A DNA stretch of 38,989 nt, taken from positions 1 through 38,989 of IMG/VR virus record IMGVR_UViG_3300042691_024196, one strand, 5' to 3'. Source of the DNA: a virus. A program made the position numbers and the translations under genes. Below the pieces are notes generated by a model. That model had not been told where the DNA came from, made no database searches, and saw only the letters and a program-made list of their open reading frames with translations. Below are positions 292 to 35,977 of this stretch, piece after piece (the first letter of the stretch is position 1; every line of letters starts with the position of its first letter).

Positions 292-303
292 TATTTATTA
301 AAT
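292..303 (+). promoter_or_regulatory. TATTTAT start-proximal element, gap 5
   Basis: TATTTAT at 292-298, then 5 nt, then ATG at 304. One of the recurrent TATTTAT-N4/5-ATG elements of this window; predicted leaderless phage promoter. It also decides the start of the gene that follows. Confidence 0.6.
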
Positions 304-894
304 ATGGAAAGTTTGATTAAAAGTATTTTAAAGGAATATAGTAAAGACGATGTGGTCTTAAAACGAGTTGGTTTTGTGGACCAATTATATTTTAAAATAC
401 TTGAGGAGGATAACAAAAAAAAGAAAATTCAAATCCCTCCTCAAGCCAAACCAATCCTTGACAGATACTTGTCTAAAATAAATCCTTTCTACGGAACATA
501 TCAAGATAAAAAGAACGATAAGGAAGGTAAAATCAAATTCAATATTAAGTACGATACTCACTATTTAGAGAGACTTTTTAGATTGTCTGACCCTGAGTAT
601 CAGGAAGGTGGTAAATTCTTCAATAACAGGATTGTAAATCCTCAATATTATGAAGGTATTGATTTTGTTAGAAACGCGGCTGATAAATTTGCACAACAAA
701 TTTTTTTAGGTAACCTTGGTGATGGAGATATTGTTGAGGCAACCGCAGTGTCAGATGGTAAATTATATAGTGTAATTATTAAAATGAATGAATTTAAAGA
801 TAAAGAACCGACTTACACTCTTTACTTGAAAACTCAAATTAAAGGAGCTCCTTTCTTTGGTAAAAAACATCAGAAAAAAATTAGATTAAATTAA
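304..894 (+). CDS. Tagged phage protein (196 aa), unknown function
   Basis: The start at 304 (MESLIKSILKE) is chosen over an in-frame ATG at 256 because TATTTAT lies 5 nt before it and because the resulting N-terminus fits the recurring (I/L)-x-E peptide (LKE at residues 9-11). The rest is a soluble mixed alpha/beta protein with a charged middle (KKNDKEGK) and an aromatic-rich centre (HYLERLFRLSDPEY). No known domain is recognised. The stop codon overlaps the U-tract of the terminator of the opposite-strand RNA gene, so the two convergent transcripts meet at about 894. Predicted late, possibly virion-associated. Confidence 0.75.
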   Translation: MESLIKSILKEYSKDDVVLKRVGFVDQLYFKILEEDNKKKKIQIPPQAKPILDRYLSKINPFYGTYQDKKNDKEGKIKFNIKYDTHYLERLFRLSDPEYQEGGKFFNNRIVNPQYYEGIDFVRNAADKFAQQIFLGNLGDGDIVEATAVSDGKLYSVIIKMNEFKDKEPTYTLYLKTQIKGAPFFGKKHQKKIRLN

Positions 895-917
895 AAACCC
901 CCACTTTTCAGTGAGGG
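893..917 (-). terminator. Rho-independent terminator of the ncRNA
   Basis: Minus strand: 8-bp stem (910-917 with 898-905, one T-G pair) closed by a GAAA tetraloop and followed by TTTTT. A near-identical stem recurs at 21725-21745. Confidence 0.85.
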
Positions 918-1080
918 AATGGTTCACTACCCTATCGCGGTGTACCTCAGCGGTTGGTTAGGGTCGTCCAACTTACCCACTTAACTACCACCTTTCGGTG
1001 TATCGACCCCCACAGAGAAGAAGTTAAACTTGTTCTAAGTGTCGCTCTGATTTTCGGTTAAGATTTATCGTTATCAAATC
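893..1080 (-). ncRNA. Predicted structured phage non-coding RNA, about 188 nt
   Basis: A gene-sized non-coding stretch with its own minus-strand host-type promoter (box at 1088-1095) and a strong terminator (893-917). No start codon with a sensible frame is seen inside. Read on the minus strand it can form several helices: CAGAG/CTCTG enclosing ACTT/AAGT; GGGTCG/CGACCC enclosing a CACC-GAAA-GGTG hairpin with a GNRA loop; and a CTA-CC/GG-TAG helix before the terminator. The GNRA loop exists only on this strand, which agrees with promoter direction. It is not tRNA-like or tmRNA-like. Role unknown; the 5' end is estimated from the promoter. Confidence 0.6.
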
Positions 1081-1087
1081 AACAATA

Positions 1088-1118
1088 CAAAGATATGTGT
1101 TTTATATTAGAATTCCAA
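1088..1118 (-). promoter_or_regulatory. Host-type promoter TTG-N20-TATCTTTG driving the ncRNA
   Basis: -7 box TATCTTTG at 1088-1095 and TTG at 1116-1118 on the minus strand, spacer 20. It overlaps the 3' end of the upstream coding gene and points at the non-coding stretch only. Confidence 0.65.
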
Positions 1119-1598
1119 ATTTTTATTGAAAATAGTTTCATCTTTTTTAAGGTATTGGTTTTTAACTTTTTCAATTAGGGATTTTAAAGCGGTCGCACCT
1201 TGTGGTGTTTTTTTAAGGTCTTCAAATTTAGGATTACCTTTAAAACCAATCTTAGAATAAGAAGTTCCGTTTTCTTTACCCCAAACAATGTTGGTTAAAC
1301 ATAACTTGTCAATTTTCTTTTGTTCTTTTTCTTTTTCTTTCTCGAATAGAATATCATCAACAACTGAGTCAAGTGTTTGTGGGTAACCAAACTTTTCGGG
1401 TAAGGTTTTACAATAATCAAAAACCTCATTTAAAAGTTTAGACATTCCTTCGTAAGGTTGGATATTTGTATTTCCTCCGTGTCCGTCATTTTTAGCATAT
1501 GCGGTTTTTTTACCGTTTACAAAAACATCAGCTATAAAACAAATAGTTTCTTCACTAAATGTTTTGTTAATCTTCAAATTTTTAAGTTCTATCTTCAT
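1107..1598 (-). CDS. Phage protein (163 aa), unknown function
   Basis: The start at 1598 (MKIELKNLKI) is set by a perfect host-type promoter at 1619-1648; the longer frame up to 1784 would overlap the neighbouring gene and begin upstream of the promoter. The protein has a short beta-rich N-terminal part with FIADVFVNGKKTAYAKNDGHGG (split: FIADVF, NGKKTAYA, DGHGG), then a helical, Lys/Glu-rich region (KEKEKEQKK) and a basic C-terminus. I do not recognise the family. The DGHGG turn is distinctive. Expressed from its own promoter, it probably belongs to the early, host-promoter class. Confidence 0.72.
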   Translation of the reverse strand: MKIELKNLKINKTFSEETICFIADVFVNGKKTAYAKNDGHGGNTNIQPYEGMSKLLNEVFDYCKTLPEKFGYPQTLDSVVDDILFEKEKEKEQKKIDKLCLTNIVWGKENGTSYSKIGFKGNPKFEDLKKTPQGATALKSLIEKVKNQYLKKDETIFNKNLEF

Positions 1599-9761: not shown

Positions 9762-10496
9762 TCATTGTTCCATTGTTGGTTTTAACCACATTAATTTATT
9801 TTCAAAAATATATCTCTTAAGTGTTGGGTAATCCTGTAGGGTTTCCAACGTGTGCATAGTATCATGTTTAAAACACTTTAACAATTCTTCACGAATTCTT
9901 TCTGAAGATACGACACCCATCTTTTTTTCATAGTTATAGTTGTTGATGTGGTAGTCTAAATATTTTAAACTAAATCCTTTGGTAATTGCAAAACGAATTG
10001 CTCTTAAAATACGAAGAGGGTCATCATTAAATGTTACATCAGTTTCTAATGGTGTTCTTAACACTCCGTCCTCCAAATCTTTTGCGCCATTAAAAAAGTC
10101 GATAATAGTACCATCTTCATCTTTAGCAAGAGCGTTCAGCGTAAAATCTCTACGTTCTAAATCATCGTATAGTGTCCCAGGAATTACAATAGGTGTTCGA
10201 GTACCTTCAACATACCCAATCTCTTTTCGAGCCATAACAAAATCGGCGACCCCTTGATACTTGTGGTCTTTAGGAAATTTAGCTCTAATAGTAAAACAGT
10301 CGGGGGTTGATAGGAATATTTCAAACTTCTCATTATGTAAGTAAGACTCAAGTATTACAAACATTTCGTGAGCGGTTTTGTATTTTTCTAATAGGTTTTT
10401 GTTAGGAACCGCAACGTAGTCCACGTCTTTAGATTGGAGACCTAAAATCTCGTCTCTAACTTTCCCACCTACTTCGTAAAACTTAAATAAACTCAT
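9762..10496 (-). CDS. cca: tRNA nucleotidyltransferase / poly(A) polymerase family protein, compact (244 aa)
   Basis: Class II nucleotidyltransferase motifs in order: GGKVRD (10-15), catalytic aspartates in KDVDYV (24 and 26), RRDFTLNALA (about 114-123) and DDPLRILRAIRF (about 158-169). The family adds CCA to tRNA 3' ends or A-tails to RNA. At 244 residues it keeps the catalytic head and neck but lacks the long C-terminal body (and any HD domain) of cellular CCA enzymes of about 400 residues. No tRNA is seen in this window. It overlaps the upstream gene by one nt (TAATG). Role: tRNA repair or maturation, or another nucleotidyl transfer. Confidence 0.88.
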   Translation of the reverse strand: MSLFKFYEVGGKVRDEILGLQSKDVDYVAVPNKNLLEKYKTAHEMFVILESYLHNEKFEIFLSTPDCFTIRAKFPKDHKYQGVADFVMARKEIGYVEGTRTPIVIPGTLYDDLERRDFTLNALAKDEDGTIIDFFNGAKDLEDGVLRTPLETDVTFNDDPLRILRAIRFAITKGFSLKYLDYHINNYNYEKKMGVVSSERIREELLKCFKHDTMHTLETLQDYPTLKRYIFENKLMWLKPTMEQ

Positions 10497-20379: not shown

Positions 20380-21330
20380 TTAATTTTTTGGATGATAAAA
20401 TTTAAATTCAGTGTTATCTGTTTTTAGAACTTCACTAAAATCAGACAACAATCTTTGTTTAATACCATTTTCAATGTCTTCAGAGAATGGACTAGGTACA
20501 ACATAACCTTCAGGATTTATAACCATTCTATTGTTCCCTTCTACAGTACCTGCTTTATCAATTCTTATATCGAATAGGATTTTACCATTATGTTCTTTAA
20601 CATCTTTAATAGTAAATTTCACCTTTTTTCTATTTTCTCCCCATCCTATAGTTATCATTTTAGTATATACCCCATAGTTATTAAAAGTTGTTATAGCATC
20701 TCTAATTCGTTTACTTTTAATATCCTCCATGGATTTACCATTCATGATATTTTTAATCTCTTCAGGAGTTACATACAGAATGTCATCTTTAATGTTTGGG
20801 TCGTAAGTCCTTCTTCTAATCGGGTTTGCACCTGATAAATGTTTGGCGGTACTTGAGGAATAAGAATTACTAACTCTATACCACTGATTATTAATGTATA
20901 GATAAATAGGGTACCAACCATAAGACGTTACTACATAGTACCATTCATTATTATCGTTAACATCCCAATAACCTTCCAAACTAGACCCTTTAAACGGTAT
21001 TTTAACGGAACTATACTCATAAGCTGAGTTGTTAGGTGTTCTTCTTTGTTTAAACTCCCTGTAGTGTTTAAAAGTAGATTTATCTAAATTTTCATAATCA
21101 CCTTCAGGTCTATAATTCGCAGTATAAATCTCATAATAAAATCTTGCGTCTGATTCAGGTCTACCGATAACTGGCATCATTGATTTGAATAGTTTTAATA
21201 GACTATCTTTTTTACTATAACTGTCTTTCTGTTTGTTGATATACTTAAAGAACCTAATTTCTTTTTGTGATAAAGGATTTTCCCCATCACCCTCAAGTTG
21301 CTCAACGATTAATTTGATTAAATTTTTCAT
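20380..21330 (-). CDS. Tagged phage protein (316 aa), unknown function
   Basis: Start at ATG 21330 (MKNLIKLIVEQLEGD) rather than an adjacent TTG at 21333; TATTTAT lies 5 nt upstream. Tag variant with IVE at residues 8-10. The middle has a Tyr/Trp-rich stretch (WYYVVTSYGWYPIYLYINNQWY) with the look of an SH3- or WW-like beta module, followed by a helical region and a final beta domain. No catalytic motif. Predicted late/packaged. Confidence 0.77.
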   Translation of the reverse strand: MKNLIKLIVEQLEGDGENPLSQKEIRFFKYINKQKDSYSKKDSLLKLFKSMMPVIGRPESDARFYYEIYTANYRPEGDYENLDKSTFKHYREFKQRRTPNNSAYEYSSVKIPFKGSSLEGYWDVNDNNEWYYVVTSYGWYPIYLYINNQWYRVSNSYSSSTAKHLSGANPIRRRTYDPNIKDDILYVTPEEIKNIMNGKSMEDIKSKRIRDAITTFNNYGVYTKMITIGWGENRKKVKFTIKDVKEHNGKILFDIRIDKAGTVEGNNRMVINPEGYVVPSPFSEDIENGIKQRLLSDFSEVLKTDNTEFKFYHPKN

Positions 21331-21704: not shown

Positions 21705-21720
21705 AAATTAAACATAATAA

Positions 21721-21745
21721 AAAACCCCCACTAAATCAGTGAGGG
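21721..21745 (-). terminator. Rho-independent terminator after the DUF5856-like gene
   Basis: 8-bp stem CCCTCACT/AGTGGGGG on the minus strand (21738-21745 with 21725-21732) followed by TTTTTT. Same stem sequence as the ncRNA terminator at 893-917. Confidence 0.85.
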
Positions 21746-24409: not shown

Positions 24410-25360
24410 TTATTGTTTGATGTTTAAAAATGTACCTGAACTACCCGCCATAGTTGTTGGTAATTTACCATCCCAAGTTTGTGCTTTAATATATTCAACA
24501 TACAAAGGTGTGATTTCTTTTTGTTTAAGTTTCATGGCAAGTGCGGTTGCCTGAGCGTCAATAATCATTTTTGCAGAATCACCTTTAGCTATCGCAATTT
24601 TTTCTTGAGCCTCGGCTTCAGCCACTAACTTTCTTTGCATCGCCGCCTGAGCTTCTTGGACCGCCTTTGTTTTCCCTTCAATTGCTTGTTGGAGTGATTT
24701 AGGTGGTATGATGTTAGTTCTCAATTGTGATACTGTAAACCATTTAGAAACTCTTTTATTACATTCAGTAATAATCGCTGCTTCAAACTCTTCTCGTTTA
24801 TTAAAGATAGCGTCCACGTCCCATCTGTTCGCCACGTCATTAACTGAGGATACAATAGCGTTTTTTAACCAACCTTGTTCAACCTCTTTAATATCTAATC
24901 TAAGATTAACAAACATTTCTCCAATCGCATCTTCACGTAATGAGTAATTGAATGAAGGTTTAATGGTCGCCGCGAATCCACCTTTGGTAATTACTGTTTG
25001 TGCGTCGTATTCGATGTGTTGTTGGAATAATGGGAATTCTTTTACTTGTTCGGTCCATGAATTGTATAAAACCCAACCTGTTTTATACTGATAAGAAGAA
25101 ACCCCTCTTTCTGAACCTGTTAAATTAACCTTTAATCCTTTATTACCCGCGTCAATTCTTTCAAGTGAAAATGGTTGTATCATTGCGATTAGAATACCTA
25201 AAAAAACAATACCTAAAGGTTTTATCAACCATGATACGTTAAAACGTTTTCTACTCCCCGAATACCTATCTTCAGTTAAAGTATACATGTTTTCTTTAGT
25301 TGACATAGCAACAAATACACCAACAATCAGTGACAAAATAAAAATTCCAAATCCAATCAT
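24410..25360 (-). CDS. SPFH / prohibitin-like membrane protein (316 aa)
   Basis: Two hydrophobic N-terminal helices (residues 1-19 and about 46-62), then an SPFH/band 7 domain (RIDAGNKGLKVNLTGSERGV; YDAQTVITKGGFAATIKPSFNYSL split) and the long Ala/Glu/Lys-rich coiled coil typical of prohibitins (AVQEAQAAMQRKLVAEAEAQ). The family builds ring-like membrane scaffolds. Phage copies are seldom discussed. Coupled by ATGA to two downstream-labelled small membrane genes that precede it in the operon. Base composition is higher in G+C than the tagged genes. Likely a host-envelope organiser during infection; inference. Confidence 0.9.
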   Translation of the reverse strand: MIGFGIFILSLIVGVFVAMSTKENMYTLTEDRYSGSRKRFNVSWLIKPLGIVFLGILIAMIQPFSLERIDAGNKGLKVNLTGSERGVSSYQYKTGWVLYNSWTEQVKEFPLFQQHIEYDAQTVITKGGFAATIKPSFNYSLREDAIGEMFVNLRLDIKEVEQGWLKNAIVSSVNDVANRWDVDAIFNKREEFEAAIITECNKRVSKWFTVSQLRTNIIPPKSLQQAIEGKTKAVQEAQAAMQRKLVAEAEAQEKIAIAKGDSAKMIIDAQATALAMKLKQKEITPLYVEYIKAQTWDGKLPTTMAGSSGTFLNIKQ

Positions 25361-29920: not shown

Positions 29921-31063
29921 TTAAATAAATAATTTAGTTAATATTGATACTGGGTCAATCCCTCCACCTGACGAAGACGCTGGAGGAGCATCAGGAAAAC
30001 CAACCGATGTTGATTGTGAAGTTCCTGACATATCTTGTGACCAAAGTTTTTGAGCTTCGGGTAACTGAGCATATTGTTCATATTGTTTAGCAGCGTCAGG
30101 ATACATTTTTTCTAATTCTTCAGGTCCAACAAAATTTGCAACACCTAACCAATCAAGAAACCCAGCATAAAATTTTGTTCTTCTCATTAAAGACCTTGTT
30201 GCAGGGTTACCACCAAAAATTCTAGGAACCCCAGCACTAAACTTAGAAGCCAAACTCGCATCGGATTTCATAAATTTAAACCAACTATTTTTACCTGTAC
30301 CAAAATCTCTAAATATTCTAACAGGATTTTGTTTTGCTAAAACACTTAACTCAGCCTTTTCTGCTGCGGCTAATGGTTTTTCGATTTTAACACCTTTACC
30401 GATTTTACTAACATCTTTAATAGCCTTAACAGTTTCAACTCCTTGTTTGATGGTTGATTTATTTGTCTTCATCATTTTACCAGCATCGTCAAAAACTTTA
30501 ACGTAGTCTGTAACTCCTTTCATCATACCACCTGAAACTTTACCACTACCACTTAATTTACTTAATAATGATGTACTCCATTTAGGAGTTTCTGCAACAA
30601 ATTTTGCAACAGGACCTCCTGCTGATTTTGCCGCTTCCGCAACCTTAACCGCATCTCCCGCGGCTGCTGCGGTTCTAAACATTTTAACCGAATCACCACC
30701 TAATTTTAATGCTCCGACAACAGGTTTGGCTATTATATCACCTAATACAGGTAATACAGAAATCCAAGATAAGATAGCAAATAATTTGTCACCTTGTCTC
30801 CAATAACTTATACCATTAACAAGGTCTACAATACCTGTAGGGTCAAAAATACCTGCGATGTCACCAAGAGTATTATACCATCTTGATTCTTTTAAAAGAT
30901 ATGATTTTTCAGGATAAATAGATTTTAAGGTTTCAATTACAAAAGTTCTATCTCTACCTGATAATTTTTCCCATTTTTCATTAATATAGTTAAGTTGTTC
31001 CTCTTTATATAGTTGGACTAACTTTTCTCTAAATTCAGATTCATTTATGTAGGAGTTATTCAT
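29921..31063 (-). CDS. Tagged protein with hydrophobic pretoxin-like segment (380 aa)
   Basis: MNNSYINESEFREKLVQLYK: tag INE at 6-8. Residues about 64-120 (LGDIAGIFDPTGIVDLVNGI, then FAILSWISVLPVLGDIIAKP) form an amphipathic/hydrophobic block resembling the 'pre-toxin' region of secreted polymorphic toxins and of some marine phage virion proteins, thought to act in membrane passage. The rest is Ala/Lys/Gly-rich and helical, ending in a Ser/Gly-rich tail. No nuclease or protease signature. Predicted virion or ejected membrane-penetrating protein. Confidence 0.75.
   Translation of the reverse strand: MNNSYINESEFREKLVQLYKEEQLNYINEKWEKLSGRDRTFVIETLKSIYPEKSYLLKESRWYNTLGDIAGIFDPTGIVDLVNGISYWRQGDKLFAILSWISVLPVLGDIIAKPVVGALKLGGDSVKMFRTAAAAGDAVKVAEAAKSAGGPVAKFVAETPKWSTSLLSKLSGSGKVSGGMMKGVTDYVKVFDDAGKMMKTNKSTIKQGVETVKAIKDVSKIGKGVKIEKPLAAAEKAELSVLAKQNPVRIFRDFGTGKNSWFKFMKSDASLASKFSAGVPRIFGGNPATRSLMRRTKFYAGFLDWLGVANFVGPEELEKMYPDAAKQYEQYAQLPEAQKLWSQDMSGTSQSTSVGFPDAPPASSSGGGIDPVSILTKLFI
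29925..29931 (-). promoter_or_regulatory. TATTTAT start-proximal element, gap 5
   Basis: Minus-strand TATTTAT, 5 nt before the GTG start at 29919; the fixed spacing supports this unusual start codon. It lies inside the final codons of the preceding gene. Confidence 0.6.
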
Positions 31064-32275: not shown

Positions 32276-33394
32276 TTAGTCTTCTTTGTATTCGTTTAAC
32301 AATTCTTCACTTGAAAGGATTCCATTATATTTCTTTGCGACCTCATCAAAGTTTTTAATGTCTACATTACTATACATTCTATGAGTAGTTTCCGCAAGTT
32401 CATTTGCCATATTAATAGTTTCGGAAATAACTTTAATTATGTCATATGGATTAGCATTTGATGCTGGCCGTCTATCCTCAATATAACCTTTCCATTCTTT
32501 AGCGGTTGACAACGGAACTCTAATAGACGCTCCTCGGTCACTAATACCCCAACTAAATTTATCTATTGACTGTGTTTCATATTTACCTGTTAACCTAAGT
32601 TCATTATCTGAACCATAAACTTCAATATGTTGGTCTCTTCTAGATTCTAAAGAGTTGAACAAAGAATTAAAATACTCCTCACCTCCTACTTCTCTCATTT
32701 TTTTAGTTGAAAAATTAGTGTGTAACCCTGAGCCATTCCACTCACCAACTCTTAGAGGTTTTGGGTGATAGTCGATGTAATATTCGAATCTTTCAGATAA
32801 TTTTTCCATAAAATATCTTGCCATCCAAAGGTCGTCTCCCGCTTTTAATTTACCCTTAGAAAATATTTGGTATTCCCATTGACCTAAAGCCACTTCAGCA
32901 TTAACACCCGTAATTCCGATACCACTAAGTAAACATAAATTAATATGTTCTTCAACAATTTCTCTACCTATAACATTTGACCCAACACCACAGTAATATT
33001 TCCCTTGACCTTCAATTGACCCTTCTCGATGTCCTAAGACAGGTTTGTATTTACCTTCACGAATAAAATATTCTTGTTCAAAACCAAACCACATATCTAC
33101 ATCTTCATTACCTAATTTAGCACGTTGATTTGTTTCATGTGGGGTCCCATCAGGGTTCATAACCTCACATAAAACATAAACTTTATCGGTTTGATTATGT
33201 AATTGATATATTCTAACTGGTTTTAAAATACAATCAGATTTATCCCCGTCCGCCTGTAATGTTGAGGACCCGTCAAAATTCCATTCAGGAATTTGACTTA
33301 ATTCACTGACTTGTTCTTGGACGATTTTAATTTTACTTCTTAAATTTGGTTCTGGTGTATACCCATCTAACCACACATATTCTATTTTTGTCAT
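32276..33394 (-). CDS. glnII: Type II glutamine synthetase (372 aa)
   Basis: ATP-dependent ligation of ammonia to glutamate. GSII hallmarks are all present: YVWLDGY (6-11), WNFDGSST (38-45), DCILKPV, GFEQEYF with metal glutamates (104-110), NAEVALGQWEYQI (165-177), WNGSGLHTNFST (219-230), SDRGASIRVP (285-294) and YIEDRRPASNANPY (304-317). Length fits the family (about 340-370). Flavobacteria carry similar GSII genes, so the likely origin is the host; it is rare in phages. It sits between small conserved phage genes and DUF3310, in an operon. Likely boosts nucleotide and amino-acid nitrogen supply. Confidence 0.94.
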   Translation of the reverse strand: MTKIEYVWLDGYTPEPNLRSKIKIVQEQVSELSQIPEWNFDGSSTLQADGDKSDCILKPVRIYQLHNQTDKVYVLCEVMNPDGTPHETNQRAKLGNEDVDMWFGFEQEYFIREGKYKPVLGHREGSIEGQGKYYCGVGSNVIGREIVEEHINLCLLSGIGITGVNAEVALGQWEYQIFSKGKLKAGDDLWMARYFMEKLSERFEYYIDYHPKPLRVGEWNGSGLHTNFSTKKMREVGGEEYFNSLFNSLESRRDQHIEVYGSDNELRLTGKYETQSIDKFSWGISDRGASIRVPLSTAKEWKGYIEDRRPASNANPYDIIKVISETINMANELAETTHRMYSNVDIKNFDEVAKKYNGILSSEELLNEYKED

Positions 33395-34585: not shown

Positions 34586-35977
34586 TTAATTTATCTTCAT
34601 AATATAATATACCTCATCTCCAAGTGTTACTGAATCATAACTACCATCGTTTCCATTCATAATACCCCATCCATCTTCATCAACTAAACCTTGAGCTAAC
34701 TCATCTTCATCAATGAAATCTTTAATATTTAAATTATGTTCTTTAATGAAATTCATAGGGTCCCTCATATATCTATTAACAATCCCATCTAACCTATCAT
34801 CAACCATATCTTGACTTGGCTCATCATCAGGTTCAATACCGTCTAACTCATCTTGGGCTCTATCTTTCTTCTCTTCTACTTCATCAATCATTTTTTGAAT
34901 TTCGTTGTATTTTCTATCATACTCGTCAGGGTCTTCTTCTTCATCATATACTTCGTTTTGCTTATCTTCAAGTTCTGATATATGGTCTTCAAGTTCTGAT
35001 ATATAATTCTCAAGTTCACTAATTCTTCTTTCTTGTTCTGCAGTTAATTCAAAATCGTCCCTGTTAAAATATATCTCAGGGTTTTGCCATATATCATCTT
35101 CAAACCATTCTCTAATATAGTCTCGTAAATAATCCTCATCTATATACTGTTCAATAAAATAACTTCTGAATCCCTCCATACCAACTTCATCTATATAACC
35201 TTCGGCATATTTTAAAGCAGCCTCGTCCATCTCATCTGAAGTTCCAACAGTATATTCATTATATCTAAACCCTGGTAATAAAATCTCAAATGTCGTTAAC
35301 CCATGATGAGTCCATCTCATTGGATTTAAATCATAAACATCCCCATCATCTTCACCAAGGTCGGATATTTCATCCTCAATTTCTGAAATCCTTTCTTCAA
35401 CATCATCACTATATTCTTCTTCGTTCTCTAACCTTTCTAATTCAGTATTTAATTGTTCTAATCTTTCTTTGTCTTTGTTACTTAATACTTCAATATCATT
35501 ATTTTCAACCAGATACTTAAAAAGAGCGTTAGCTTTCATACCTTCATCGTCAGTATCTTCAATATCCCACATTTTACCCATTCTTCTACGATTGGCCTCA
35601 GTTCTTTTTTCTTTTAACTCAGCCGCTAATCTTTTGGCCTCCCTTGGGGAACTACTATCCCAAACATGGTTTTTAACGGTAACCCCGTCAATATTAGAGA
35701 CTTTAGTTCTACTAATATTAAGACTACCATCAACATACTTTATATTTCCTAATGAATCTACAGGTGTGCTCGAAACATCCAAATCACCCGTTATCCATAA
35801 TGGTTTTCCTTTAAATTTAGGTAATTTACTAATCCCTTGTCCGTGATAACCTGAAAGTTTTAATAACTCCATATATTCTTGGGGAGATATTTTATAGTAC
35901 TCATCTTCAGACTGTTCTTTAATCAAATTTAACAATCTATTCATTTTATTTTCAGATAAAAAAATTCTACGATTCAT
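34586..35977 (-). CDS. Tagged coiled-coil / beta-repeat protein (463 aa)
   Basis: MNRRIFLSENKMNRLLNLIKEQ: tag LSE at 7-9, TATTTAT 4 nt upstream. Residues about 55-100 look like a few short beta-repeats (GDLDVSSTPVDSLGNIKYVDGSL split; LNISRTKVSNIDG) as in leucine-rich-like phage proteins. Two strongly charged coiled coils follow: about 165-205 and about 320-385, the second with the repeated ISELENY-ISELEDH-ISELEDK heptad. Very acidic. Predicted elongated, virion-packaged protein; no enzyme motif. Confidence 0.77.
   Translation of the reverse strand: MNRRIFLSENKMNRLLNLIKEQSEDEYYKISPQEYMELLKLSGYHGQGISKLPKFKGKPLWITGDLDVSSTPVDSLGNIKYVDGSLNISRTKVSNIDGVTVKNHVWDSSSPREAKRLAAELKEKRTEANRRRMGKMWDIEDTDDEGMKANALFKYLVENNDIEVLSNKDKERLEQLNTELERLENEEEYSDDVEERISEIEDEISDLGEDDGDVYDLNPMRWTHHGLTTFEILLPGFRYNEYTVGTSDEMDEAALKYAEGYIDEVGMEGFRSYFIEQYIDEDYLRDYIREWFEDDIWQNPEIYFNRDDFELTAEQERRISELENYISELEDHISELEDKQNEVYDEEEDPDEYDRKYNEIQKMIDEVEEKKDRAQDELDGIEPDDEPSQDMVDDRLDGIVNRYMRDPMNFIKEHNLNIKDFIDEDELAQGLVDEDGWGIMNGNDGSYDSVTLGDEVYYIMKIN

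Follow-up and report, generated by a model that had tools for sequence, protein, structure and literature searches.

In type III toxin-antitoxin systems the RNA and the toxin form a bicistronic operon that is read from one promoter, with the RNA repeats placed first and a terminator ahead of the toxin gene (PMC5086642). In AbiF/RCd22 of Clostridioides difficile the RNA neutralises the protein by binding to it directly (PMC12373285). The pseudo-ToxI RNA of phage PhiTE counters a host toxin (PMC3475682), and RegB of phage T4 is an early protein (PMC9409239).

The locus described here lies near one end of the window, by which we mean the whole stretch of DNA analysed, 38,989 nucleotides long (positions 1-38,989 of IMG/VR record IMGVR_UViG_3300042691_024196). 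It comprises an RNA gene and a small protein gene whose product is here called protein 0:

292-298, plus strand: TATTTAT shortly ahead of the ATG of protein 0, perhaps a late promoter; it recurs upstream of protein 0 genes
304-894, plus strand: protein 0, the partner gene, with the N-terminus MESLIKSILKE; convergent neighbour of the RNA, predicted RelE/RegB-like fold
893-917, minus strand: putative intrinsic terminator, stem-loop 917-898 plus T-run 897-893; from the sequence, and found in relatives too
893-1084, minus strand: RNA gene, non-coding, about 190 nt; from the sequence, its relatives and the lack of a conserved ORF
1088-1095, minus strand: -7 element of the RNA promoter, TATCTTTG; from the sequence and relatives
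1116-1119, minus strand: -33 element of the RNA promoter, TTTG; from the sequence, with TTTGG there in 7 of 10 members

This arrangement recalls the type III systems ToxIN, TenpIN/AbiQ and CptIN in that an H-type pseudoknot RNA has as its neighbour a small protein whose predicted fold is RNase-like, and in that tandem RNA copies occur, albeit in one relative only (G073). Unlike type III loci, however, the phage pair is mostly convergent and has separate control elements rather than being one operon with the RNA upstream, the RNA is a single unit in the window and most relatives rather than a tandem repeat, and the protein, RelE/RegB-like by prediction, falls outside the known type III toxin families. 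The likeness to AbiF/RCd22 lies in a structured RNA linked to one protein family, in two motif copies and in being phage-borne, but AbiF is an Abi_2-family protein whose gene is preceded by the RNA motif array, whereas the phage RNA has no Rfam match and protein 0 no significant Pfam match. Protein 0 resembles T4 RegB and the RelE-fold endoribonucleases in the predicted succession of its strands and helices and has weak structural matches to them; it differs from them in lacking significant sequence similarity, in its longer N-terminal part and in its linked RNA, and its expression is possibly late whereas that of RegB is early. Pseudo-ToxI is likewise a phage-encoded pseudoknot RNA, but here the phage itself encodes a protein gene beside the RNA. 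We file the RNA-protein pair as working like a type III system and not as a member of that class, the neutralisation being inferred.

Is there an RNA gene at all? The putative promoter fits the published sigma-ABfr consensus TTTG/TANNTTTG, for which the distance from the -7 element to the start is 4-5 nt (PMC6847099). TTTG (1119-1116) and TATCTTTG (1095-1088) are spaced 20 nt apart, and transcription is expected to start at about 1083-1084. A TAnnTTTG (-7) element is in the right place in all ten members with contigs reaching far enough; the -33 element in these ten is TTTGG in seven and CTTGG or GTTGG in two, and is absent from L105. At the other end the stem-loop CCCTCACTGAAAAGTGGGGG (917-898) is followed by TTTTT (897-893), which overlaps the TAA stop (892-894) of the convergent gene 304-894(+). 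In the ORF control the stretch showed no conserved open reading frame, ARAGORN found no tRNA or tmRNA in the window, no Rfam family scored above the gathering threshold for the RNA, and DNA comparison of the RNA with isolated phages gave 21-nt chance matches only. An earlier note, made from the window sequence alone, had proposed a minus-strand Bacteroidota-type promoter, a terminator at 893-917, a non-coding stretch between them and no fit to a tRNA, tmRNA or known riboswitch; each of these proposals is upheld, the first by the consensus match and the recurrence of the -7 element in relatives, the second by the stem-loop and T-run that relatives also have, and the others by the searches just given. 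By folding energy the single sequence does not stand out significantly (z = -1.6, with 15 of 200 shuffles as good), so the case for the RNA rests on comparison. That comparison shows window 1084-893(-) to encode a free-standing structured non-coding RNA, whose transcription is inferred from the promoter-like and terminator-like sequences.

A second terminator-like hairpin, near-identical to that of the RNA, is found elsewhere in the window (21705-21745, minus strand). By eye, two other loci (L004 and L005) have a tRNA-like sequence directly 3' of a relative of window 1107-1598, where the window has the RNA.

With ten close relatives and ten distant ones among other phage records, the RNA constitutes a previously undescribed family, a conclusion that is well supported as far as sequence comparison goes. 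There are eleven type-1 members (the window, G010, G011, G030, G035 and G062-G067). The first two loci came via relatives of gene 304-894 and eight more from records of the same phage group (gathered via the window's CCA-adding enzyme and then searched by DNA) together with a pattern scan. Model R2 recognised members outside its training set at E-values of 2e-19 (G067), 8e-17 (G030) and 3e-16 (G035). It also gave a marginal match in G037 (E 0.016), which was accepted because it has the same promoter, a terminator, 17 identical bases shared with G067 around hairpin P2 (AUACGUCGAAAGAUGGU) and the element order P2, pseudoknot, hairpin, as in type 1. The DNA of the G037 RNA matches a stretch in G041 that lies beside a protein 0 homolog. 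A pattern scan for this distant type (type 2) returned nine records, seven of them new. Its pseudoknot is AGGA/UCCU with GUUAGG/CCUAAC or GUCAGC/GCUGAC, and in an alignment of four sequences double changes occur in 4 of 15 pairs. Shared ancestry of types 1 and 2 is likely but not proven.

Several weak matches were not accepted. Those of R2 in L138, L139 and L141 and of R3 in L214-L216 (E 0.008-0.035) lack the promoter-RNA-terminator arrangement and were judged to be chance, which means that an E-value near 0.01 counts for nothing alone; L140 was accepted only on account of its promoter, its terminator, the shared 17-nt P2 stretch and its neighbour. Pattern matches in L015, L018 and L019, with no other part of the RNA beside them, were likewise put down to chance. 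In a pattern scan of genomes, three of ten contexts were read (L119, L120, L122) and proved to be ordinary sequence with no core, which gives little information on hosts.

Comparison of the records shows the carriers of the RNA to be uncultivated large phages of Bacteroidota. The window encodes a CCA-adding tRNA nucleotidyltransferase (9762-10496, minus strand), although no tRNA was detected in it. Relatives of this enzyme are found in records of up to 373 kb, so the window probably represents only part of a large phage genome. A glutamine synthetase domain (32276-33394, minus strand) and an SPFH/Band 7 protein (24410-25360, minus strand) are also phage-encoded here.

The conserved core of the RNA consists of a 4-bp hairpin, an H-type pseudoknot and a 3' hairpin. 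The predicted helices in the window are:

1057-1062, minus strand: 5' strand of P1, CUUAAC, pairing with 980-985; from relatives
989-1000, minus strand: P2 hairpin, CACC-GAAA-GGUG; both-sided changes in 3 of its 4 pairs among relatives
980-985, minus strand: 3' strand of P1, GUUAAG; from relatives
975-978, minus strand: 5' strand of pseudoknot stem S1, GGGU; from relatives and the pseudoknot control
968-972, minus strand: 5' strand of pseudoknot stem S2, GUUGG; from relatives
961-964, minus strand: 3' strand of S1, ACCC; from relatives and the pseudoknot control
953-957, minus strand: 3' strand of S2, CCAAC; from relatives
921-946, minus strand: P5 hairpin, GGU-A-CAC / GUG-A-ACC; sequence swapped in relatives

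In the type-1 alignment of eleven members the 15 pairs are standard in every cell and four pairs have changed on both sides, giving a covariation score that was reached by none of 500 shuffles and by no slid control. These figures call for caution, because the alignment was guided by the model and hence fitted to the structure, and because relatedness among the sequences inflates covariation scores. Some of the changes are visible by eye: P2 occurs as CACC/GGUG, CGUC/GACG, CAUC/GAUG and CGUU/AAUG, and S2 as GUUGG/CCAAC or CUUGG/CCAAG, its outer pair being G-C in three members and C-G in eight. S2 covaries in both RNA types, the pseudoknot itself being predicted only. S1 (3-4 bp, and just 3 bp in L106) shows no covariation within type 1, and P1 none either way since its 5' strand is invariant in the ten members that cover it. 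P5 is GGUACAA/UUGUACC in L105 and, by eye only, GUGACA/UGUCAC in G062, whose single-sequence fold differs. There are conserved bases outside the helices as well. Of shuffled sequences, 10-27% also form an H-type pseudoknot of this size, so one case by itself is no proof; from the ORF and pseudoknot controls, one sequence alone is insufficient as evidence.

Compensatory changes in relatives were the test that the earlier note had itself set for a new structured phage RNA with its own promoter and terminator, and they support it. Of the two helices it named, CACC-GAAA-GGTG stands and covaries; GGGTCG/CGACCC exists in the window yet was rejected as a conserved helix (L014 has AACACCC and L013 lacks the 5' strand). 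The pseudoknot had escaped it, as had the linkage of the RNA to the convergent gene.

This linkage is extensive. In 10 of 11 type-1 records protein 0 is convergent at the 3' end of the RNA, while the other neighbours differ. A protein search of 50 records gave clear protein 0 matches in seven, including G041, all with the RNA adjoining, and an N-terminal fragment match in G047 (E 0.003). A second small protein family, X, is present in ten of the 50 records, in every case with the RNA adjoining or close by. Protein X adjoins the type-2 RNA, in three arrangements, and the X proteins of G037 and G041 are homologous (E 4e-10). The gene order is convergent in type 1 and in G037-like loci; in G041-like loci protein 0 is divergent from the RNA and X lies downstream on the same strand. 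The linkage also passed a prediction: a distant X in G073, found by protein alone, has two tandem pseudoknot units in its flank, behind one TATCTTTG promoter. (Scores of these copies under model R3 are not independent, because the copies had entered that model.) Since many of the records are fragments and several nearly duplicate one another, there are fewer independent cases than records, about three settings for each of the two types. Even so, the evidence is strong and shows that the RNA is tied genetically to two small protein families, 0 and X, a finding new here. Neither family had a match in isolated phages, nor protein 0 in plasmids. An hhalign comparison of protein 0 with X was not significant, and some weak profile matches to X were discounted as probably due to a shared N-terminus. 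A 183-aa ORF with repeated LEETDKLREYTP motifs sits between the tandem RNA and X (L208, 1976-2527, minus strand).

Protein 0 can be lost while the RNA stays. In G063 its gene has an in-frame stop, and in G065 it has been deleted between short repeats, leaving MKKIIKTYNPLN; the RNA is intact in both. G065 is 100% identical to G062 over 1,432 nt beyond the deletion and 98% identical across the RNA, and both losses look recent. The reverse case, an intact protein 0 without the RNA, was not seen in these records, of which many are fragments.

What might protein 0 do? Its structure model (pLDDT 76) has a strand, helices (helix-helix) and three strands over residues 73-180. VIA-align matched residues 77-193 of the model to nine toxin chains of the RelE, YoeB/ParE and HigB kind (Z 2.7-4.0); MAJIN chains score level with the RelE-type toxins. 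A Foldseek search of the PDB, in which sortases ranked first, had no match at E < 0.001, and among viral structure models the matches included a phage 'site-specific RNA endonuclease' (probability 0.51). Pfam REGB_T4 matched one of nine protein 0 members only, at E 0.15; there was no significant Pfam, PADLOC or PHROG match, and no known type III toxin family fits. Invariant in nine protein 0 sequences are H86, E89, R90, F92, R93, Y155, Y171, Q178 and K180, and the G041 protein has Q at the E89 position. Together the models weakly suggest a RelE/RegB-like nuclease fold, the matches being weak and cleavage data lacking. The protein X model (pLDDT 42) was too poor to use.

Every protein 0 gene that was inspected has TATTTAT a short way upstream. 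In a set of 1,466 distinct ORFs from these phages it lies within 35 nt of 21 of the 29 that carry the N-terminal motif (protein 0 genes are themselves among the 29) versus 200 of the 1,437 without. Many window ORFs start with a short segment of the MKxLIxxILxE or ITE type, and a TATTTAT-like element closely precedes their ATG, for instance 20380-21330, 29921-31063 and 34586-35977. The N-terminal segment and TATTTAT may mark a late, head-targeted gene set, TATTTAT being a putative late promoter and the motif a putative head-targeting signal cleaved at LxE. Both readings are inferred by analogy with T4-like phages.

We consider it an even call that the RNA and protein 0 or X form a pair like the type III toxin-antitoxin systems, in which the RNA restrains a nuclease; no binding, cleavage or toxicity data exist. 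By analogy with type III systems and AbiF/RCd22, the H-type pseudoknot would bind the protein and block its ribonuclease activity. The RNA would be read from a host-type sigma-A promoter, and for this reason could be made once phage DNA enters; protein 0 would be made from a different upstream element, TATTTAT, possibly late. Its N-terminal MKxLIxxILxE motif may direct it into the head, and the RNA would protect the producing cell, or a newly infected one, from the nuclease. Inhibition agrees with the one-sided gene loss and with the tandem copies, but not with the gene order. An extension of this reading, in our opinion unlikely, is an infection-timed toxin-antidote pair: a late RelE/RegB-like nuclease would be packed into the virion via an N-terminal signal cleaved in the prohead and injected, and the antidote, the pseudoknot RNA, transcribed by host polymerase on entry. 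If this were true, cells with the protein but without the protection of the RNA, or rival phages, would be harmed.

The same observations can be read otherwise. RNA and protein might share an accessory cassette without any contact, the RNA separately regulating host or phage mRNAs. The persistence of the RNA in G065 and G063 and the possession by each gene of its own control element would then be expected, but the pair stays together while other neighbours vary between loci and a second family, X, accompanies the distant RNA type in three arrangements, and we regard such independence as somewhat unlikely. It is distinctly unlikely that, instead of inhibiting the nuclease, the RNA serves it as substrate, activator or scaffold, or is packaged as cargo: protein 0 has been lost with the RNA nearly unchanged (though both losses look recent) and there is no evidence of RNA in virions, even if the conserved bases outside helices accord with such a role and the N-terminal motif of protein 0 is compatible with head packaging. 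Mimicry of the antitoxin of a host type III system, by which the RNA would guard the phage from host suicide as pseudo-ToxI does, draws on the pseudoknot, the tandem copies in one relative and the PhiTE precedent (PMC3475682). However, it leaves the protein 0 or X beside the RNA unexplained and no host locus was found (in one pattern scan, with hosts hardly searched), and we rate it very unlikely.

Two further explanations were weighed. The conserved stretch could encode a small peptide, since a frame reading VVKWVSW keeps seven codons in type-1 members and its internal changes are synonymous. Yet this frame has no conserved start codon and no ATG in the window, continues differently in L105 and L106 and is absent from the distant type, and its variable bases are those of a pseudoknot loop and a compensated base pair; a peptide is scarcely credible. 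That promoter- and terminator-like sequences flank a conserved DNA site by chance gains something from the unremarkable folding energy of the window sequence alone, but can be practically dismissed given that the promoter, the terminator and the compensated helices are found again in about twenty records.

Our analysis adds to large phages known only from metagenomes an undescribed RNA family that has both covariation and a genetic partner, and the RNA-protein pair is short enough for direct testing in laboratory strains. Should the RNA indeed inhibit the nuclease, type III-like control would reach a RelE/RegB-like enzyme, and also a gene order with separate timing of RNA and protein.
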